IMG/VR virus record: IMGVR_UViG_3300050821_013826
Location: 1 to 35,009 of that record
From: a virus
Reading direction: 5' to 3' (one strand)
Length of the DNA: 35,009 nucleotides
In this document: positions 4,058 through 16,064 of the stretch, in pieces
Numbering within the stretch: position 1 is the stretch's first letter
Layout: every line of letters begins with the position of its first letter
Program-made: the position numbers and the translations under genes
Notes under the pieces: model-generated
The model's input: only the letters and a program-made list of their open reading frames with translations
The model's database searches: none
Told to the model about the DNA's origin: nothing

Positions 4058-4103
4058 ACTTGCGAAAAAACTTGCCAAGGACTTGCCAACAAAAAAACTT
4101 GCC
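4058..4103 (+). repeat. Four short tandem-like ACTTGCC/ACTTGCG repeats
   Basis: ACTTGC[CG] occurs at 4058, 4070, 4081 and 4097, separated by A-rich spacers (unit starts 12, 11 and 16 bp apart). The last copy overlaps the -35-like TTGCCA of the promoter-terminator unit at 4099. The array stands at the left edge of the phage cluster, between the divergent host gene and the terminase module. It could be a regulator-binding array or slippage-derived repeats; nothing in the sequence decides this. Confidence 0.6.
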
Positions 4104-4180
4104 ATGTCGGGCAAATCAGCTGCATATGTTCAGCATCGCAAGAATTAAGCCCGCGCCGGAAAACCGGTCGCGGGCTTTTT
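4099..4180 (+). repeat. Promoter-terminator repeat unit, copy A
   Basis: This is the first of three ~82-bp near-identical units (others at 10262 and 14606). It has a -35-like TTGCCA at 4099, an 18-nt spacer, a CATATG at 4123, then about 20 nt to a strong hairpin with T-run (4148-4180). Conserved blocks are atgtcgggcaaatca, ctgcatat, catcgca and the whole stem. If the first part is a promoter, a transcript of roughly 45-50 nt would start and stop within the unit. Copy A precedes the small terminase module. Confidence 0.75.
4148..4180 (+). terminator. Rho-independent terminator in unit A
   Basis: The stem agcccgcg/cgcgggct is extended by ccgg/ccgg with one bulged T, giving about 12 bp closed by an AAAA loop and followed by a T-run. 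Copies B and C have the GAAA (GNRA) loop instead. It reads on the + strand. Confidence 0.85.
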
Positions 4181-4346
4181 GAATCGGACGGCGATCCGCA
4201 TTCACGGGCGCATTCATCCTCCCAGTCAGCTCATTGCCGCCAGACGCGCCCCCGTGGGTCGTCGTCCGAACCAGTCAGCCGGCGCCCGCGTTCGCGCAGC
4301 CGATTTGCACCCCGCAACAACAACGAACGATCATGAAGAGGCCCGC

Positions 4347-4600: not shown

Positions 4601-4850
4601 AAGCATCACCGAAATCCGGTCACTGGCGCGCAGCCATACCCGGACCGCGCTCAATGTCCTGGTCGGCGTCATGCGATCGAAGGACGCCACCGCCACCGCA
4701 AAAGTATCCGCCGCGAATGCCATTCTGGATCGCGGCTGGGGCAAAGCCACGCAAGCCATCGGCAACAGCGACGACGGTGCGTTGGAACTGATCCATAGAA
4801 TCGAGCGCGTCATTGTCCATCCTGAAAATCCCGACAGCCAGGGTCTTTGA
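4581..4850 (+). CDS. Small terminase subunit-like protein
   Basis: This 89-residue protein sits directly before, and overlaps by 38 bp, the large terminase gene. That is the usual place for the DNA-recognition (small) subunit of the phage packaging motor. The sequence has helical segments (ARSHTRTALNVLVGVMRS and ATAKVSAANAILDRGWGKA) with the AANAILDRGWGKA pattern that I associate with small terminase-like or putative HTH proteins of alphaproteobacterial phages. It is shorter than many TerS proteins, so the call rests partly on position. The start is atgatg at 4581/4584. Confidence 0.65.
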   Translation: MMSKMVRSITEIRSLARSHTRTALNVLVGVMRSKDATATAKVSAANAILDRGWGKATQAIGNSDDGALELIHRIERVIVHPENPDSQGL

Positions 4851-6099
4851 GCCGCTGCTTGCGCGCGCCCGGTACAAGGGTGTGCACGGCGGCAGGGGCT
4901 CGGGAAAATCGCATTTCTTCGGCGAGCTTTTGGTGGAGACCTGCCAGGCCGAGCGCGGCACGCTGGCGGTCTGCATTCGCGAAGCGCAACGGACGCTGGC
5001 GCAGTCCAGCAAGCGGCTGATCGAAAGCAAGATCGCAGCCCTCGGCGTCGGCAGTCAGTTCAAGCTGTTCAATGACAAGATCGAAACGCCCGGCGACGGG
5101 CTGATCATCTTCAGGGGCATGCAGGATCACACTGCCGAGTCGATCAAGTCGCTGGAGGGGTTCGGGATTGCCTGGATCGACGAGGCGCAGAATTTGAGCG
5201 CGCGCAGTCTTTCACTGTTGCGCCCAACCATCCGCGCTGAACGCTCCGAACTGTGGGCGTCGTGGAATCCGCGCCGGCGGTCCGATGCGATCGATGATTT
5301 TCTTCGCGCAAGGCAGCCGCCGGGCGCGATCGTCGTCAACGCCAACTGGCGCGACAATCCGTGGTTTCCATCGGTGCTGGAGCAGGAACGCAAGCTCGAT
5401 CTCGCGCTTTATCCCGACCGCTATCAGCACATATGGGAAGGCGATTACGTCAGGGCCTTCGAGGGCGCGTATTTCGCGCAGATGCTGGGCGAGGCCAGAT
5501 CACAGCAAAGAATCGGAAAAGTCTCCGCCGATCCGTTGCTCCCGATTCGCGCCTTTCACGATATCGGCGGCTCCGGTGGCGTTGCCGATGCCTACGCTAT
5601 CTGGATTGTTCAGTGGGTGGGACAGGAGATTCGCATTCTCGATTACTATGAGCAGGTCGGGCAAGTGCTCGCCTTCCACGTCAACTGGATGCGTGAGCGC
5701 GGCTATGAGAAGGCGATCAACTATCTGCCGCATGACGGCGTGAACGAAAACAACGTCACCGGCAAGAAATACGAGGACCATTGGCGCGAGGCCGGCTTCA
5801 ATGTCGAGCCGCCGGTGAAGAACCAGGGCAAAGGTGCGGCGATGATGCGGATCGAAGCGATCCGCCGGCTGGGGCCGCAGATGTGGTGGAATGAATCGAC
5901 CACCGAGCCGGGCCGGGACGCGATCGGCTTCTACCACGAACGCAAGGACGACATTCGCAACGTCGGCCTCGGACCGGAGCACGACTGGTCCAGCCACGCC
6001 GCCGATGCGCTGGGCCTGATGGCGGTCTGCTACGAGGCTCCGGGGCGGACGGCGAGTTTTAATCGGGCGATCCGGTATGCGGAGCAGGGCTGGGTGTGA
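4813..6099 (+). CDS. terL: Phage terminase large subunit (ATPase-nuclease)
   Basis: This 428-residue PBSX-family (Terminase_3-like) large terminase powers DNA packaging into the capsid and cuts the concatemer. The ATPase domain shows Walker A GGRGSGKS (residues 26-33), an adjacent Q/R-rich segment, and Walker B IAWIDEAQ (119-126) with its catalytic Glu. The C-terminal RNase H-like nuclease half contains FHDIGGSGGVADAYAIW and the terminal DWSSHAADAL, both supplying acidic metal ligands. The length is normal. The start is TTG 4813, overlapping the preceding gene; no ATG fits before the conserved N-terminus. It is intact, although a large accessory insertion follows immediately. Confidence 0.95.
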   Translation: MSILKIPTARVFEPLLARARYKGVHGGRGSGKSHFFGELLVETCQAERGTLAVCIREAQRTLAQSSKRLIESKIAALGVGSQFKLFNDKIETPGDGLIIFRGMQDHTAESIKSLEGFGIAWIDEAQNLSARSLSLLRPTIRAERSELWASWNPRRRSDAIDDFLRARQPPGAIVVNANWRDNPWFPSVLEQERKLDLALYPDRYQHIWEGDYVRAFEGAYFAQMLGEARSQQRIGKVSADPLLPIRAFHDIGGSGGVADAYAIWIVQWVGQEIRILDYYEQVGQVLAFHVNWMRERGYEKAINYLPHDGVNENNVTGKKYEDHWREAGFNVEPPVKNQGKGAAMMRIEAIRRLGPQMWWNESTTEPGRDAIGFYHERKDDIRNVGLGPEHDWSSHAADALGLMAVCYEAPGRTASFNRAIRYAEQGWV

Positions 6100-6231: not shown

Positions 6232-7101
6232 CTATCGGGCGCAGATGGGGTCGGAGCTATCGGTTGGGTGGTAAGCGCGGCAAATGACCAGATCACTGAT
6301 CGTCCATACGCGATCGGCAATCCCGATTGCCATCGCTGGCGTACATTTAAGGCTCTCATGCATTCTAGCGAGATTATAGAACGCGATGTGTAATGAAACT
6401 GCGGCGCAATGGGGATCGAGTTTCTTGCTAAAACCATTGCTCAGGCGCGCGAATCGTTTCGATGACATTCTGATCGTGAGATTTTGCCGTTCGACATAGC
6501 TTGTCGAAAACGTAACAGGATCTCCATTCGCTATCTGCTCTTCGACTGAGATCACTTCGGCCGGCGAGTAACGTCGAGATGCTTCGGTTATGTTCAGGTG
6601 AGTCACGGAGTAAGACCTGTTCACTACTCCATGGGCAACGTTGGGACCAAAAGCATCCCGGATGTAAGGGCGATAGGGATGGAAACCGTCCGTCGTGATT
6701 TCTGGCGTACCAATGACGCGCTCGCGCAAATCCTGGATAAGAAGGTCCGTGTTCTCTCCATCGCGCTTGCCCGTGCGGTAGCTGATGATGGCTCGGGTTG
6801 AGCTGCCAAGAGCGATGAAAGTATTTTGGTCGCCAGTCACGGCGATGTCGCGTCGGAGTTTCTCATGCTGCCGTCTTTTTCGCCCAACGAATGCCCATAA
6901 CTCGTCACATTCGATGAGGTTGGCTCGAACGCCGACCATCATGCGGTCGTGTAGTTCGGCGCAGCCGCGCCCGACTTTGAGCGCCAAGGTGGCGACGGTT
7001 TCGCGGTTAACCCCGGTGACGCGGCCGGCGGCGCGAATACCCATGCCCTCTACAAGGGCGGCGATGACTTCAACTTGTTTCTGATGAGGTAGAAGGTTCA
7101 T
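6232..7101 (-). CDS. IS1-family-like DDE transposase
   Basis: This ~289-residue transposase has an N-terminal helix-turn-helix segment (LVEGMGIRAAGRVTGVNRET) followed by a DDE-type catalytic region. Candidate acidic residues are in ECDELWAFV and TTDGFHPY, with the later YVERQNLTIRM/ARLSNGFSKK block typical of the IS1-like transposases abundant in Bradyrhizobium. ATG at 7101 was preferred; an upstream ATG at 7164 would add 21 residues of doubtful quality. The stop falls in a short GC hairpin (6225-6244). I did not find clean terminal inverted repeats hugging the gene, so it may belong to the larger segment bounded at 6140 and 8943. It is on the strand opposite to the phage genes. Confidence 0.85.
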   Translation of the reverse strand: MNLLPHQKQVEVIAALVEGMGIRAAGRVTGVNRETVATLALKVGRGCAELHDRMMVGVRANLIECDELWAFVGRKRRQHEKLRRDIAVTGDQNTFIALGSSTRAIISYRTGKRDGENTDLLIQDLRERVIGTPEITTDGFHPYRPYIRDAFGPNVAHGVVNRSYSVTHLNITEASRRYSPAEVISVEEQIANGDPVTFSTSYVERQNLTIRMSSKRFARLSNGFSKKLDPHCAAVSLHIAFYNLARMHESLKCTPAMAIGIADRVWTISDLVICRAYHPTDSSDPICAR

Positions 7102-7157
7102 GGCCCAATCCACGAAATGCGGAACTGAGGCCCGGAAGTCTCTGGAAATCTCGCCGA

Positions 7158-7175
7158 ATATCATATATATGATAT
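7158..7175. promoter_or_regulatory. 18-bp perfect AT palindrome upstream of the transposase
   Basis: atatcatatatatgatat is its own reverse complement and lies 57 bp before the preferred transposase start, overlapping the alternative start at 7164. It could be an operator or part of an element end. Confidence 0.5.
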
Positions 7176-7265
7176 CGAACGATCATGGCTTCGGGCCCAG
7201 TCCCTGAGTTGTGATCTAGGGACCCGGTCCCCGTTGACGCGGTGATCGGTTCTGTTTCGAGTCTA

Positions 7266-7342
7266 TGGCGGTCCCGGTTGGACTCGAACCAACAACCCGC
7301 AGTTCGGAAGACTGAAGCTCTATCCAGTTGAGCTACGGGACC
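7266..7342 (-). tRNA. tRNA gene, anticodon UCC by folding, Arg-like body
   Basis: A full 77-nt cloverleaf is visible on the minus strand. The 7-bp acceptor stem is ggtcccg/cgggacc. The D arm is gctc-aactggata-gagc, the T arm is gttgg-ttcgagt-ccaac, the discriminator is G, and CCA is encoded. Strict spacing gives the anticodon arm tcagt-cttccga-actgc, whose outermost pair (27-43) is U-C, placing UCC at positions 34-36 with G37. UCC would read Gly GGA codons. The body and G73 look more like an arginine tRNA. A shifted loop exposing CCG (Arg) would not form a stem. Its place inside a mobile-looking segment suggests an acquired or decaying gene. Confidence 0.85.
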
Positions 7343-7351
7343 ACCCCAAAG

Positions 7352-7381
7352 GGAGGAACTGGGTTGCCGCCCGGTTCCTCC
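7352..7381. other. Strong hairpin beside the tRNA 5' end
   Basis: ggaggaac/gttcctcc (8 bp) is extended by tggg/cccg around a short loop, immediately 5' of the tRNA on its own strand. There is no T-run in either direction, so it is not a standard terminator. It could be an RNA-processing or recombination structure. Confidence 0.45.
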
Positions 7382-7414
7382 TATCCGGTGACGTATTATC
7401 TACTATAACGAATA

Positions 7415-7433
7415 ATTCAGGTCAATACTGAAT
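7415..7433. promoter_or_regulatory. Candidate operator of the HigB/HigA-like operon
   Basis: The perfect inverted repeat ATTCAG-N7-CTGAAT lies in an AT-rich stretch 32 bp before the toxin start and just after a TATAAC that could be a -10 box. Antitoxins of the XRE type usually repress their own operon by binding such palindromes. That role here is inferred from position. Confidence 0.5.
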
Positions 7434-7465
7434 CTGCCCCCTTGTAGATATCCTCTTAAATCGAT

Positions 7466-7867
7466 ATGTGTATGACGTCGTGGACGTTCTACGACTACGT
7501 CGAGGCTGGCGGTCGGAACCCAATCCGGCACTGGCTCGATTCCATGCCCCCATGCGATAGCGAAAAAATTGACACGAGACTGCGGTACATGGCGGCAATG
7601 CCGCGATGGCCTGAGAAGTGGGTTTCGAAGTACAAGGGTACCGATGAGATTTTTGAATTTCGGATTGTTGGCAACAAAGTGCAGTACAGGCCGCTCGGAA
7701 CGTATTACGGCACCAAGCAATACCTCCTTCTCGCCGGAGCAATCGAGAGGGGTGATAAAATTCCAAAGAGCGATATTGAAACTGCAGAGCGGCGTTTAAG
7801 TACCGTTAGAAGAGAGTCCGGCCATGTCATCCTCCACAAATACGACGGCGATCCAGATTTGGGGTAA
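7466..7867 (+). CDS. RelE/HigB-like (Gp49-type) toxin
   Basis: This 133-residue protein resembles phage-derived Gp49-like HigB toxins, which are ribosome-dependent mRNA interferases of the RelE fold. Visible features are an N-terminal FYDYVEAGGRNPIRHWLDSMP segment, a KYKGTDEIFEFRIVGNKVQYRPLG core (strand-rich, with Lys and Arg at expected catalytic positions), and the YLLLAGAIERGDKIP segment that matches the family's LxxGxxKK-like end. The C-terminus is longer than usual. Its 3' end overlaps the antitoxin gene by 44 bp. Codon use is AT-richer than in the phage genes, suggesting transfer. There is no good ribosome site; ATG 7472 is an alternative start. Confidence 0.72.
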   Translation: MCMTSWTFYDYVEAGGRNPIRHWLDSMPPCDSEKIDTRLRYMAAMPRWPEKWVSKYKGTDEIFEFRIVGNKVQYRPLGTYYGTKQYLLLAGAIERGDKIPKSDIETAERRLSTVRRESGHVILHKYDGDPDLG

Positions 7868-8441
7868 GCTGGAGAACAAGGAGTATCGAGACTCCTTCGT
7901 TGCTTCCAATATCTCTAACACCGTGTCTTCTCAAATCTTCACGATGCGAGAACAGCACGGTTGGACACAGAAGCAACTCGCACAACGAGCGGGCATGGGG
8001 CAATCGCGGATTCCAGCCTTGGAAGACCCGAACCTTGAGAATTTTGAAATCGGTACATTGAAGCGGATCGCGTCGGCCTTCGATGTTGCGCTCGTCGTCC
8101 GATTTGTGCCGTTTAGTGAACTAACAAATTGGACGGCGCGTCTCTCCGAAGAAAGTCTATTCGTTCCAGACTTTGCGAACGATAGACTAGAGCTAGAGCC
8201 GGTTTCCGCAAACGTGGAGTTTACTGTCAAGATCGTGAATATAAATGCTGCAGCTATTCCAAACCCAAATCCCATCGCGGGTTCCATCGGCTTTGCTAAC
8301 GCTGATCATAGTTACGGTATGCTCACTATGGTCAGCCAACCGACAATGTATTCGCCGGCGTCACACCAAATTACGAACAGCAGTCCGCTCAACGTTGCAG
8401 AAATGATGTTCCCGCTTCAGGGAGACCACGTTCGTGGTTAA
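7824..8441 (+). CDS. XRE-type antitoxin-like regulator with extended C-terminus
   Basis: This 205-residue protein carries an HTH_XRE domain at about residues 35-95. It shows IFTMREQHGWTQKQLAQRAG, then MGQSRIPALED, then IGTLKRIASAFDVALVVRF, the classic HigA-like core that ends in a dimerising strand. Simple HigA antitoxins are about 100 residues. This one adds ~110 residues (VPFSELTNWTARLSEESLFVPDF and onwards) of unknown role. It overlaps the toxin gene upstream and the DUF6941-like gene downstream (8 bp), so the three genes form one operon. It probably neutralises the toxin and represses the operon through the palindrome at 7415. Confidence 0.75.
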   Translation: MSSSTNTTAIQIWGKLENKEYRDSFVASNISNTVSSQIFTMREQHGWTQKQLAQRAGMGQSRIPALEDPNLENFEIGTLKRIASAFDVALVVRFVPFSELTNWTARLSEESLFVPDFANDRLELEPVSANVEFTVKIVNINAAAIPNPNPIAGSIGFANADHSYGMLTMVSQPTMYSPASHQITNSSPLNVAEMMFPLQGDHVRG

Positions 8442-8880
8442 GTTGATGCCAAAGCAGTTTGTCGTTTGCGATGACATTCGACGTGAAATGAGTGGCAAGG
8501 AAATTCTGATCGGTGTCTACGGCAGCGACATTGCAGTTGCAGGCTTTCCCACTCAGTTGGCCTTGTCCTATTGGGTTCAGGTCTACTCGCCAGAAGCTGT
8601 TCTTTCGCCCGCCACTATAGATTTTCGGTTGATGGGTGGAGAGGATGCCCAGTTCTTTGCCGTTTCCGTTCAGGTAATGATCCCTAGACCAGGTCTTGGG
8701 GCAATATCGCTTCCGGCGATTCCTTTCAGTCTCCAAATCCCGACGCGCTTAATACTTCAGATGAGACAGAGAGATGGGGATTGGGAGAAGGCTGGCGAGT
8801 TCGGAGTAGATAGAGGTACTCCGCTCCCCAATTTTAGCGCCGCTGCGGCTGCCGCAGCAGCCGCTGCTGTCCGCACGTAA
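8434..8880 (+). CDS. DUF6941-like protein with poly-Ala tail
   Basis: This 148-residue protein opens with the KQFVVCDDIRREMSGKEILI and GVYGSDI pattern that I associate with DUF6941, a family of unknown function that often sits beside XRE regulators. The body is beta-rich (FRLMGG, FAVSVQVMIPRPG, FSLQIPTRLILQM). The C-terminus ends in an unbroken run of ten alanines encoded by gc-rich codons. The GTG start at 8434 overlaps the previous stop, with AGGGAG ten bases upstream; ATG 8446 is an alternative. Third-gene position suggests a role tied to the toxin-antitoxin pair, but no activity can be assigned. Confidence 0.65.
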   Translation: MVKLMPKQFVVCDDIRREMSGKEILIGVYGSDIAVAGFPTQLALSYWVQVYSPEAVLSPATIDFRLMGGEDAQFFAVSVQVMIPRPGLGAISLPAIPFSLQIPTRLILQMRQRDGDWEKAGEFGVDRGTPLPNFSAAAAAAAAAAVRT

Positions 8881-10132: not shown

Positions 10133-10261
10133 TGATAACAGCCTCAGCTAGCAACGTCGCTGCCAATATCCCCTCGACACCGGATGTGCAAGCGCCGCGC
10201 TGATAGTCATTAGATATCGAAGCCACTGCGACTGTTCTGTCGGCAAGGTCCGCCATCCGGA

Positions 10262-10343
10262 TTGACATGTCGGGCAAATCACCTGCATATTAGCACCATC
10301 GCAAGAATTGAGCCCGCGCCGGGAAACCGGTCGCGGGCTTTTT
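10262..10343 (+). repeat. Promoter-terminator repeat unit, copy B
   Basis: This is the second copy of the ~82-bp unit. It has a perfect -35 consensus TTGACA at 10262, an 18-nt spacer and CATATT at 10286, then about 20 nt to the hairpin. It is almost identical to copy C through the stem, with a GAAA loop. Flanks differ, so only the unit itself is conserved. It precedes the portal gene. Confidence 0.78.
10311..10343 (+). terminator. Rho-independent terminator in unit B
   Basis: The stem agcccgcg + ccgg pairs with ccgg + (bulged t) + cgcgggct, has a GAAA tetraloop, and is followed by a run of T. It would stop transcription arriving from the accessory region before the portal operon. Confidence 0.85.
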
Positions 10344-10410
10344 AGTCGGCTGTATTTCACAGCGCCCGTCGTCAGGCGATACCTCCCCGGTCATCAACCA
10401 ACGCCTTTCG

Positions 10411-10477: not shown

Positions 10478-11065
10478 ATGCCCAAAATGTCTCCGCTCGA
10501 TCTGAAAGCCATGCTGGCCTCGGAAAAGGCCAACGCACTGGCGGCGATCTCGGCCGCCAGGCTGATGGAAGAGCGCGCCGATGCGATGGATTATTATCTC
10601 GGCGACATGCGCAAGGACATGCCGGCGCAGGATGGACGCAGCCGCGCGGTCTCGACCGATGTCGCCGACACCATCGAAGGCCTGATGCCGAACCTGATGG
10701 ATATCTTTGCCGGCTCCGACGAGGTGGTGCGGTTCGAGCCGGTCGGACCCGAGGACGAGGCCGCGGCGCAGCAGGAGACCGACTACGTCAATCACGTTTT
10801 CATGCAGCAGAACCCCGGCTTCATGATCCTGTATTCCTTCATCAAGGACGCGCTGCTCTCCAAGGTCGGCATCGTCAAGGTATGGTGGGAGGAACGCGAG
10901 GAAGAGAGCCGCGAGACCTATTACGACCTCACCGACGATCAGTTCGCGCTATTGGCGCAGGCCGTGGTCGAATCCGGCGGCGCTATGAAGATCGTGGCGC
11001 ACACGATGCACGACGCAGGCGACGTGCTGGAAAACGGGCCGCGCCAATCGGAGGCGACGAGTTGA
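10478..11065 (+). CDS. Phage portal protein, N-terminal part
   Basis: These 195 residues match the N-terminal region of large P22/SU10-like portal proteins, the dodecameric ring through which DNA enters and leaves the head. Typical segments are MEERADAMDYYLGDM, VSTDVADTIEGLMPNLMDIF and QETDYVNHVFMQQNPGF, followed by FIKDALLSKVGIVKVWWEE. The frame stops at 11063-11065 and the rest of the portal continues from an overlapping ATG (TGATG) in the next frame. This is therefore either a frameshifted gene or a two-polypeptide portal with coupled translation. It is the first gene after repeat unit B and its leader hairpin. Confidence 0.85.
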   Translation: MPKMSPLDLKAMLASEKANALAAISAARLMEERADAMDYYLGDMRKDMPAQDGRSRAVSTDVADTIEGLMPNLMDIFAGSDEVVRFEPVGPEDEAAAQQETDYVNHVFMQQNPGFMILYSFIKDALLSKVGIVKVWWEEREEESRETYYDLTDDQFALLAQAVVESGGAMKIVAHTMHDAGDVLENGPRQSEATS

Positions 11066-12726
11066 TGAACATGACCACTCCCTTGCTGGCTCCGCCGTTG
11101 CCGCAGCCGGTCGCATCCGCGGTTACCCATGACGTCGTCATCGTCACCACCCGAAAGCTTGCCCAGGCCAAAGTGCTCGGCGTTCCCCCGGAGGAATTCG
11201 GCATCGAGCGCGGCGCCCGCAACATCCGGAATTGCAATTACTGCTTCCACGAAGTCGTCACCAGGACCGAAAGCCAGTTGATCGCGGAAGGGTTTGACGA
11301 GGAGCAGATCAAGTCGCTCAGCGACTACACCGGCAATACCGAGATCGAGACGCTGGCCCGCGACACGGTGGATGAGCATTTCAGCACCACCGCCGGGGGC
11401 GTGAATTCCGCCGCGCGCCTGGTTCGAATCACCGAGCACTACGTGCGGATGGACTACGAGGGCCGCGGCCGCGCTTGTCTTTACCAGGTCGTTACCGGCG
11501 GCGACCAGGGCGAAGTCCTGCGCAAGGACGGCAAGGAATGCGTCACGCCGTTCGACGCCATTCCGTTTGCGACGACGACGCCGGTGCCGGTGACGCATCG
11601 TTTCTTCGGCCGCTCGATCGCCGATCTGGTGATGCCGGTGCAGCGGGAGAAAACCGCGCTCAAGCGCGGCGCGCTCGACAATCTCTATCTGCACAACAAT
11701 CCCCGGGTCGAAGTGGCCGAGGGCATGGCAGGCCCCAATACGCTCGATGATTTGCTGGTATCACGCCCCGGCGGGGTGGTCCGCACCAAGCAGCCCGGCG
11801 GGCTGAACTGGCAGGTGGTGCCGGATATCACCACCTCGATCTATCCGATGCTGCAATATCTCGATGCCGAACTGGAGACCCGCACGGGCCTCGCCAAGCA
11901 GACCCAGGGCATCGACGCCGACGCTCTGCAGAACCAGTCCGCCACTGCCGTGGCGCAAGTCTTTAACGCCTCGCAAATGCGGATGAAGCTGATCGCCCGC
12001 ATCATGGCCGAGGGCGTGCGGGACATGTTCGCGCTGCTGCACGCCACGATCCGCAAGCACGGCCAGCAGCAACAGACCGTGCGCCTGCGCAATGGCTGGA
12101 TCAATGTCGATCCCAGAGGCTGGAAAACCCGCGACGACATGACCATCAATGTTGGCCTCGGCTCCGGCGGCAAGGCCCAGCAATTCGCGCAGACGATGGC
12201 CATTGCAAACGTGCAGAAGCAGATGCTGGCCGGTGGCAAGAGTAACCTGGTCGGCGACGTCCAACTCTACAACACCGCGGCCGAGCTGACGCGGATCATG
12301 GGCCACAAGAACCCGGATCAATTCTTCAACGATCCCTCCGCCATCAATCCGCAAACCGGGCAATTGCAGCATCCGCCACCGGCGCCGCCCTCACCGCCGC
12401 CGGATCCGAAGCTGCTGGCGGCGCAGGCGAGGGCGCAGACCGATCAGGTCATCGCCGCGCACCAGGCCCGGATCGAACAACAGAAAGCGCAGAACGCCGC
12501 CGTCCATTTGCAGGTCAAGACCCAGGCCGAAATCGAGCTGGCCCGGATCAAGGCCGATCTCGACGCCAGGATGGCGCTGCTCGACGCGCATTTGAAGGCC
12601 GCGACCGAAGCGCGGAAGCCGCCGCGTTCATACCCGCCGGACGCGCGAAAAGCGAAGGACGGTCACCATTATGTGGCCGACCCTAATCGTTCTGGCAAAT
12701 ATTTGTTGGTTGTTCATCATGCCTGA
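11065..12726 (+). CDS. Phage portal protein, C-terminal part
   Basis: This 553-residue continuation of the portal starts at ATG 11065, whose first base is the last base of the upstream stop. Conserved portal blocks are VPPEEFGIERGARNIRNCNY, FGRSIADLVMPVQREKTALK, ETRTGLAKQTQGIDADALQN and AVAQVFNASQMRMKLIARI. The C-terminal ~130 residues are a Pro-rich hinge (HPPPAPPSPPPDPKLL) and a helical, charged tail (KTQAEIELARIKADLDARM). Together with the upstream part it gives about 750 residues, a normal length. Its 3' end overlaps the HNH protein gene. The frame is also open back to 10882, so a single indel between about 10980 and 11065 would restore one gene. Confidence 0.88.
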   Translation: MNMTTPLLAPPLPQPVASAVTHDVVIVTTRKLAQAKVLGVPPEEFGIERGARNIRNCNYCFHEVVTRTESQLIAEGFDEEQIKSLSDYTGNTEIETLARDTVDEHFSTTAGGVNSAARLVRITEHYVRMDYEGRGRACLYQVVTGGDQGEVLRKDGKECVTPFDAIPFATTTPVPVTHRFFGRSIADLVMPVQREKTALKRGALDNLYLHNNPRVEVAEGMAGPNTLDDLLVSRPGGVVRTKQPGGLNWQVVPDITTSIYPMLQYLDAELETRTGLAKQTQGIDADALQNQSATAVAQVFNASQMRMKLIARIMAEGVRDMFALLHATIRKHGQQQQTVRLRNGWINVDPRGWKTRDDMTINVGLGSGGKAQQFAQTMAIANVQKQMLAGGKSNLVGDVQLYNTAAELTRIMGHKNPDQFFNDPSAINPQTGQLQHPPPAPPSPPPDPKLLAAQARAQTDQVIAAHQARIEQQKAQNAAVHLQVKTQAEIELARIKADLDARMALLDAHLKAATEARKPPRSYPPDARKAKDGHHYVADPNRSGKYLLVVHHA

Positions 12727-14553: not shown

Positions 14554-14605
14554 CGTGGCCGCACTTCGTTGAGGGATGCTTCCACGTACAAATTGCTTTC
14601 AAGGA

Positions 14606-14686
14606 TTGACATGTCGGGCAAATCACCTGCATATGTTCATCATCGCAGGAATTGAGCCCGCGCCGGGAAACTGGTCGCGGGCTTTT
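14606..14686 (+). repeat. Promoter-terminator repeat unit, copy C
   Basis: This is the third copy. It has TTGACA at 14606, an 18-nt spacer, CATATG, and then the hairpin from 14655. Compared with copy B the differences are few, and one of them (ccgg to ctgg in the stem) keeps a G-U pair, so the structure is preserved. It precedes the capsid operon. Confidence 0.78.
14655..14686 (+). terminator. Rho-independent terminator in unit C
   Basis: It has the same stem as units A and B with a GAAA loop and one G-U pair, followed by TTTT. It would insulate the capsid operon from upstream transcription. Confidence 0.82.
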
Positions 14687-14904
14687 GAATTGGCGCGATG
14701 GTCGCATTGATGGAGTTCCGCGGCCTGATGGCACGGAGCCAGTCATCAGGCGCCCGATCTGTCGGCTTGCGATCCGGCTTCAAAAAGCTTCATCCGATGA
14801 GATGCGATATCGCGTGATGTTGCTACACATCAGACAACAGGCTGCCGGGTGCGCTGATTGAAGCGACCGCAGCAAACCGAATTGGCTGGTAGCCAACGCC
14901 GACC

Positions 14905-15105
14905 CTGCCGTTCGCGCAGGCGCCCGGCGAAGACATCGAAGAAGCCGAACCGGAAGCGGTGCTTCCGCGCCATCGTGCGACAGACGTCTTCAGATCCTTA
15001 AACCCATCAACGTCCGGCGCGTTCACTTCCAGGCTCAATCGTTTGCGCGCAGCGCAGTTCGAGGCGGCCTGGCGCCGGGCACCATCCAAGGAACACCTCT
15101 TATGA
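14905..15105 (+). other. Possible short reading frame or remnant before the capsid gene
   Basis: The ~400 bp between repeat unit C and the capsid gene holds no standard gene. One frame is open from 14893 to a TGA that overlaps the capsid ATG (ATGA). It reads as an acidic then basic segment (APGEDIEEAEPEAV, SRLNRLRAAQFEAAWRR). Only CTG 14905 could start it. Position is that of a scaffold gene in related head modules, so a scaffold remnant is conceivable, but evidence is thin. Confidence 0.25.
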
Positions 15106-16064
15106 CTCTTCCGACTTCCACCTTTGTCACCTACCAGGCGGTGGGCAACCGCGAAGACCTCAGCGATATGATCTATCGCATCGATCCGACCGATACCCCG
15201 TTCATGAGCGGCGCCGAAAAGGAAAAGGCCACCGCCGTCAACCACGAGTGGCAGACCCAGGCGCTCGCCGCGGCTTCCTCGGCGAACGCCCAGCTCGAAG
15301 GCGATGATCCCACCACCACCGCGACCACACCCACGGTTCGTCTCGGCAATCTCTGCCAGATCTCCTACAAGGTAGCGGGGGTATCCGGCACCCAGCAAGC
15401 GGTCGATCACGCCGGCCGGGACAATGAGCTTGCCTATCAGGAAATGCTCAAGGGCCTCGAGCTCAAGCGCGACATCGAAACCATCCTGGTCGGCACCAAT
15501 CAGGCCAAGGTCAGCGGCAACGCCACCACGCCGCGCCAGACGGCGTCGATCCTGTCCTGGATCGCGTCCAACACCTCGAAGGGCACGGCCGGCTCGCCCG
15601 CCGATCCGTCGCCTGTCGATGGCACCGGCACGCGCACCGACGGTACCCAGATTGCGTTCACGGAGGTGCGCCTGAAAAGCGTGCTGTCCTCGATCTGGAC
15701 CAATGGCGGCAAGCCTGGCACCATCATGACCGGCGCCTTCAACAAGCAGGTGTTCTCCACCTTCACAGGCCGTTCCACCGCGATCGAGGAAGCCAAGTCG
15801 AAAAAGATCGTGGCTTCGGTCGATGCCTATGAGTCCGATTTCGGCAAGCTCAAGGTGGTGGCCAACCGCTTCCAGCGAGCCCGCGACGTACTGGTGCTGG
15901 AAATGGACAAGTGGGCGGTCGCTTATCTCAACGGACGCAACATGATCTCGATTCCGCTGGCGAAGACCGGCGACTCCGATCGCCGCGAGATCCTGGCGGA
16001 ATACGCGCTGGTGGCCCGCAATGAAAAATCGAGCGGCGGCGTCTTCGACAACACCGTGTCCTGA
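15102..16064 (+). CDS. SU10-like major capsid protein (DUF5309 type)
   Basis: This 320-residue HK97-fold major capsid protein belongs to the DUF5309/SU10 type. Recognisable blocks are the N-terminal REDLSDMIYRIDPTDTPFM, NHEWQTQALAAASSANAQLE, and the LGNLCQISYKVAGVSGTQQA strand. The E-loop to helix region NELAYQEMLKGLELKRDIE and the late YESDFGKLKVVANRFQRARD follow. The length is normal for this type, and there is no fused protease or long scaffold-like N-terminus. AAGGA lies nine bases before ATG 15102. It sets the virion type as short-tailed SU10/P22-like together with the portal. Confidence 0.93.
   Translation: MTLPTSTFVTYQAVGNREDLSDMIYRIDPTDTPFMSGAEKEKATAVNHEWQTQALAAASSANAQLEGDDPTTTATTPTVRLGNLCQISYKVAGVSGTQQAVDHAGRDNELAYQEMLKGLELKRDIETILVGTNQAKVSGNATTPRQTASILSWIASNTSKGTAGSPADPSPVDGTGTRTDGTQIAFTEVRLKSVLSSIWTNGGKPGTIMTGAFNKQVFSTFTGRSTAIEEAKSKKIVASVDAYESDFGKLKVVANRFQRARDVLVLEMDKWAVAYLNGRNMISIPLAKTGDSDRREILAEYALVARNEKSSGGVFDNTVS

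Follow-up and report, generated by a model that had tools for sequence, protein, structure and literature searches.

Promoter early stem-loops (PeSLs), reportedly described by Arbiol in 2010 and by Comeau in 2014, are said to join a sigma-70-like promoter to a stem-loop terminator in a short intergenic unit that occurs in several copies per genome. PeSLs exist in T4-type phages and are linked to gene shuffling (PMC4503421). Promoters and terminators are also paired at the targets of the antiterminators lambda Q, AlpA and GafZ, where a binding element lies at the promoter and a terminator lies downstream (PMC7171158, PMC7969949, PMC9371919, PMC11150451). Late promoters of the lambda type carry a QBE, a sigma-dependent pause and a downstream terminator (PMC7171158). 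AlpA has two target operons in Pseudomonas aeruginosa; its element is found between -10 and -35, and a terminator precedes the first gene (PMC7969949, PMC9371919). GafZ acts at the promoter of the Caulobacter gene transfer agent, where a palindromic element sits in the spacer, and allows terminators to be bypassed (PMC11150451).

Here, we analyzed a virus record of 35,009 bases (IMGVR_UViG_3300050821_013826; the whole stretch is called the window below), in which a unit of about 82 bp, a promoter-like part followed by a terminator-like hairpin, occurs three times. The closest published cassette is the PeSL: like PeSLs, these units place a promoter and a stem-loop in a short intergenic unit, are present in several copies and are associated with modular gain and loss. 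The likeness is one of architecture; unlike PeSLs, the units lie in integrase-less, podovirus-like Bradyrhizobium clusters, at terminase, portal and capsid genes, and have an almost invariant spacer. With AlpA promoters they share a candidate element inside the -35/-10 spacer and a terminator between promoter and first gene, but the element has another sequence and one cluster holds 1-6 copies. Like the GafZ promoter, they belong to an alphaproteobacterial phage-like structural cluster and carry the candidate element in the spacer; however, the GafZ system has one promoter, a palindromic element and a terminator after the first gene, whereas here there are several units, a non-palindromic core and a terminator right after the promoter. 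The lambda Q late promoter resembles them in its late genes, its element near the promoter and its early terminator, but it is a single promoter; here there are several units, a pause element is partly supported, and searches for Q21- and lambda Q-type antiterminators, both with a working control, found none among 10 virus records and 6 host genomes. PeSLs and spacer-located antiterminator elements are each already known; as far as our limited literature search shows, a repeated promoter-spacer-terminator cassette ahead of Bradyrhizobium head modules is apparently undescribed.

The window carries three copies of the unit

The left end of the window is host-like (K+ transporter, cytochrome c and arginase genes). 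To its right lies a podovirus-like structural cluster with terminase, portal and capsid genes; genes for virion, fibre and collar proteins extend to about 31 kb, and a methyltransferase gene and an acyltransferase-like frame come after them. The positions of the units and of the modules downstream of them are given in Table 1. The two portal frames meet at a TGATGA overlap; several relatives are split alike, and locus L146 has a single frame of 701 aa. The interval between terminase and portal holds an insertion (6232-8880). In it are an IS1-like transposase frame, a tRNA gene on the minus strand (7269-7342) and a Gp49/HTH pair that resembles a HigBA toxin-antitoxin.

Table 1. Positions of the units, the leader RNA and the head genes in the window.
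Feature	Position	Strand	Details
Unit 1	4099..4180	+	TTGCCA-18-CATATG; intrinsic-terminator-like hairpin about 4147-4177; upstream of the large terminase gene, 635 nt gap
TerL, terminase large subunit	4813..6099	+	module downstream of unit 1
Unit 2	10262..10343	+	-35 TTGACA 10262-10267; conserved spacer 10268-10285; -10 CATATT 10286-10291; putative start near 10298; hairpin about 10310-10340; T-run to 10343; upstream of the portal N-part gene, 170 nt gap
Portal protein, two adjacent frames	10511-11065 and 11065-12726	+	module downstream of unit 2
Unit 3	14606..14686	+	TTGACA-18-CATATG; hairpin about 14654-14684; upstream of the capsid gene, 417 nt gap
Structured leader RNA, twin hairpins	14895..14997	+	between unit 3 and the capsid gene; separate from the unit
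SU10-type major capsid protein	15102..16064	+	PF17236, E 7e-96; module downstream of unit 3

An earlier note on this DNA had described three copies of about 82 bp ahead of the terminase, portal and capsid genes, and both a repeat finder and the sequence itself bear this out: copies that are 82-90% identical were returned at 4096-4187, 10259-10350 and 14603-14694, with no second repeat family of comparable strength in the window. All three share their strand with the late genes, and each contains the -35-like hexamer, 18-nt spacer and -10-like hexamer that the note had listed. When folded from the putative start, whose placement we infer from the sequence, each copy formed one 13-pair hairpin followed by a T-run, as had been claimed for the region downstream of each promoter-like part (-24.9 to -27.1 kcal/mol; z -3.7 to -4.8 against dinucleotide shuffles). 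We also confirmed the stem change that keeps a G-U pair: in copy 3, a C-to-T change converts a G-C pair to G-U. A promoter scan with an E. coli-style consensus called copy 2 alone, because the -10 of copies 1 and 3 ends in G, and the terminator scan that accompanied it missed the hairpin in the units.

No PF00589 integrase was found in the window record, where host-like genes flank the cluster (4100-31200), or in 18 related virus records (G011-G019 and G210-G218), which may be fragments; the control was positive in 14 of 14 genomes. An integrase-less structural cluster of this kind is possibly gene-transfer-agent-like. Phage reads from B. japonicum S06B show an even genome coverage that is described as gene-transfer-agent-like (PMC10127595).

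The spacer and the RNA stem are conserved across relatives

We profiled 139 distinct full units from all fetched loci, which comprise Bradyrhizobium phages and prophages, and found that the element is real and conserved. TTGAC and a 14-nt spacer core, CGTCGGGCAAATCA, mostly carry 1.7-2.0 bits per position; a GCAT motif near the -10, after the core, and CATCATCGC around the putative start are also conserved. Each of the 50 bases upstream of the unit carries about 0-0.3 bits, apart from one position at 0.5, which agrees with the earlier view that the flanks are unrelated and the element is kept as a unit. The core is asymmetric, not a palindrome. The 139 units present a conserved candidate binding element between -35 and -10. 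With related sequences pooled, a -10-like hexamer occurs at +5 to +10, mostly at +6 or +9, in 52% of units versus 24% of shuffles.

Beyond the conserved start, the RNA body and the hairpin differ in sequence and length between units. The hairpin sequence drifts, with its pairing retained: when 58 hairpins were aligned for covariation, a check that the earlier note had proposed, 7 of the 13 pairs proved to have changed on both sides. The alignment held 36 cells with changes on both sides, compared to 13.0 +/- 3.3 in shuffles (none of 500 was as high), a count that is not a probability, as the sequences are related; sliding the hairpin partners by 1-3 columns, a control that preserves relatedness, removed most of the signal. 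Mean fold energy was -24.9 kcal/mol, versus -13.9 kcal/mol in shuffled copies. Together, the covariation and the slid control support the proposal that the RNA structure is selected. This covarying hairpin with its T-run, about 45 nt past the putative start, represents a putative intrinsic terminator before the first gene.

An optional unit with a fixed position and orientation

Loci fetched via the unit have a recurring layout: one or more units, the small and large terminase genes, a unit, the portal gene, a 99-aa gene, a unit and the capsid gene. Positional counts from such loci are biased, and we superseded them with samples anchored on the genes. When anchored on the capsid, the unit was found upstream in 32 of 64 close relatives; with a limit of 700 nt to the capsid gene, it occurred at 18 of 27 loci with a capsid identity of at least 90%, at 14 of 37 with 85-90% and at 0 of 39 below that. 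Of 78 portal-anchored loci, 15 had a unit, in each case at a distance of 69-164 nt upstream of portal; of 57 terminase-anchored loci, 9 had one (8 of 14 at an identity of at least 75%). In the portal- and terminase-anchored loci, 59 units were on the late-gene strand and 0 on the opposite one. From these results, we conclude that the unit is optional, yet its position and orientation are fixed where it is present. The placement ahead of head modules that the earlier note had stressed is seen for terminase, portal and capsid alike, but it is not universal. Nor do copies always precede phage modules: they also occur before cassettes for accessory secreted proteins, in tandem arrays and as orphans.

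Units also occur away from head genes

Many unit-bearing genomes hold prophage remnants at one host neighbourhood, where terminase fragments are often preceded by a pair of units with a spacing of about 170 bp. On one side of this neighbourhood are genes that we take, from reading the sequences, to be phasin, alpha-hydroxy acid dehydrogenase and CaiB-like genes. Genome G071 has a tandem array of five units (period about 166 bp) upstream of a terminase fragment (L145, 7955-8695). Accessory segments that encode signal-peptide-like and unknown proteins are bounded by units in many loci, and Pfam and PADLOC gave no match for the proteins between units. The unit-bounded cassettes of L161 (6055-12240) are duplicated, with segments 80-94% identical; they encode two proteins, one small and signal-peptide-like, the other larger, of unknown kind and with an NSNSFAAA motif. 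Four loci (L150, L151, L153 and L154) carry an orphan unit and, after it, the capsid leader RNA between two host genes, and nothing nearby matched 14 phage proteins of the window. We also considered the unit as an att site, as some loci have their first unit or half-unit 11-27 nt past a host gene; this idea was set aside as improbable because copies also separate late modules and no integrase was found.

The two hairpins of the capsid leader RNA have a similar internal-loop pattern (GCCG-A-CCC...GGG-C-GCC-CGGC and CGA-A-CCGG...CCG-C-GCC-AUCG), and in a set of 14 sequences both partners have changed in 5 of its 20 predicted pairs. The 84 sources searched gave 33 matches, some of them overlapping copies of one record. 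The RNA is present in about 25 distinct loci. By eye, the leader RNA is also present in relatives without the unit.

Full units are found in Bradyrhizobium, and half of the unit in a host repeat

With blastn, the unit had no match in 50,697 phage records or in a plasmid collection. A strict sequence pattern found nothing in viral contigs because most relatives read CACGTCGGG, not CATGTCGGG; a loosened pattern returned 57 stretches in IMG/VR, many of which hold the unit in full. Among GTDB genomes, the exact pattern identified full units solely in Bradyrhizobium, and matches in the non-Bradyrhizobium genomes (L007, L011 and L017) are without the hairpin and look like chance. Matches at E 1e-9 were present in 58 of 147 Bradyrhizobium genomes; at this value a positive genome holds 1-5 full units, clustered in phage loci. 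Rfam has no family for the unit or the capsid leader RNA, and we treated a lone weak match to sR19 (E 0.05, under the gathering score) as chance.

The promoter half of the unit, including CATCATCGC and without the hairpin, is part of a dispersed chromosomal repeat of about 110 bp. This repeat reads AAACAACCCCATGCANAG, about 45 nt, then TTGACNCGTCGGGCAAATCA...; in L076-L094 (about 110 bp each), its second half, after N45, reads TTGACNCGTCGGGCAAATCAGGTG.ATA..GCCATCATCGC. First- and second-half matches numbered 93 and 44 in one genome and 54 and 14 in another, and G006 and G124 have tens of copies; G003 and G071 have no first repeat half, yet contain full units. The repeat follows a gene 3' end in most of 20 copies examined, and the copies examined have their own upstream half and no hairpin directly after the promoter half. 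It contains a good -35/-10 pair. The published consensus sequences of Br-REP1 and Br-REP2 of B. japonicum differ from it (PMC5082802). The earlier note had held that many copies scattered through unrelated chromosomal places would speak against its reading of the unit; such scatter was found for the promoter half, as part of the dispersed repeat (93 and 54 copies of one repeat half in two genomes, none in two others), but not for the full unit, which clusters in phage and prophage-remnant loci.

Discussion

Our results raise the possibility that the unit is an antitermination-controlled gate, that is, a promoter followed by a terminator that a trans-acting antiterminator bypasses; we give this reading a probability of roughly 0.45. 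A transcript from a sigma-70-type promoter would be stopped about 45 nt on by an intrinsic terminator, and the antiterminator would load on RNA polymerase at CGTCGGGCAAATCA, between -35 and -10. When the factor is absent, a short terminated RNA would result, and read-through from an upstream operon would also be stopped; when it is present, polymerase would pass the hairpin and the terminase, portal or capsid operon would be transcribed. The factor is presumably encoded outside the cluster. We infer that the promoter is active and that the hairpin terminates transcription, and likewise the factor and its identity.

A gate of this type was among the options in the earlier note, and spacer conservation together with the selected hairpin leads us to retain it as the likeliest mechanism: a fixed -35/-10 spacer with a selected terminator is the architecture of processive antitermination targets, and a plain promoter needs no set spacer sequence. 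The 59:0 orientation and the tight distance of 69-164 nt to portal also count in its favour. Against the gate, the Q21 and lambda Q searches found no antiterminator in the 10 virus records and 6 host genomes, the core is not palindromic as the GafZ element is, and a good -10-like pause element is missing from about half of the units. The host repeat, too, contains this spacer core but shows no terminator downstream, so the core may carry another meaning. Close relatives lack the unit before the capsid gene in half of the cases, so the cluster does not depend on the gate.

The units could instead be PeSL-like cassettes for recombination and insulation, each providing a constitutive promoter for the next cassette and a terminator for the previous one, and kept mainly for homologous copies that allow modules to be duplicated, swapped or inserted. 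The five-unit tandem array of one genome (period about 166 bp), the duplication of unit and accessory genes in L161 (80-94% identical), the many loci in which units bound accessory segments, and the unrelated flanks all fit this explanation. We nevertheless consider it rather unlikely: with the promoter ahead of the terminator, the cassette would stop its own transcript; neither recombination nor plain initiation calls for a spacer conserved to anything like this degree; and position and strand are fixed relative to portal and capsid. Less likely again is an operator or 'stoperator', at which a repressor on the conserved spacer would silence late promoters when integrated and the hairpin would only insulate. 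Such a site is consistent with a near-invariant, asymmetric core that is present in every copy, several times per cluster, and always oriented with transcription. However, a check of window proteins (a subset of ORFs) against PHROGs or Pfam showed no phage repressor, the sole HTH protein sits in the toxin-antitoxin-like pair, and a selected terminator so near the start is left unexplained.

Variation in the RNA body and hairpin, which is expected of a terminator and not of a base-pairing or protein-binding RNA, argues against a family of small-RNA genes with the terminated RNA of about 45-50 nt as their product. Points in favour of such a family are a promoter that runs into a terminator of its own, units in tandem, and orphan copies beside which no phage gene was detected; we assign it a chance just short of that of the stoperator. 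Finally, an ordinary dispersed Bradyrhizobium repeat that lies in prophage by chance is very improbable, and largely excluded for the full unit. The promoter half is indeed common to the chromosomal repeat of about 110 bp, with tens of copies in G006 and G124, but the host copies examined have their own upstream half and lack the hairpin, G003 and G071 have full units without that half, and full units cluster in phage loci.

If the antitermination gate is correct, then alphaproteobacterial phage-like elements without a detected integrase would set the whole gate (promoter, loading site and terminator), as a reusable cassette, before each head module instead of using one master late promoter. 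A more speculative extension, which we think unlikely, is that a host-encoded antiterminator simultaneously opens several identical gates of an integrase-less, gene-transfer-agent-like podovirus cluster and also acts at the dispersed promoter halves, tying particle production to a host regulon. Under the gate reading, the core CGTCGGGCAAATCA offers a concrete search target for the missing factor, and the unit marks a family of elements with a possible relation to the gene-transfer-agent-like particles of S06B (PMC10127595).
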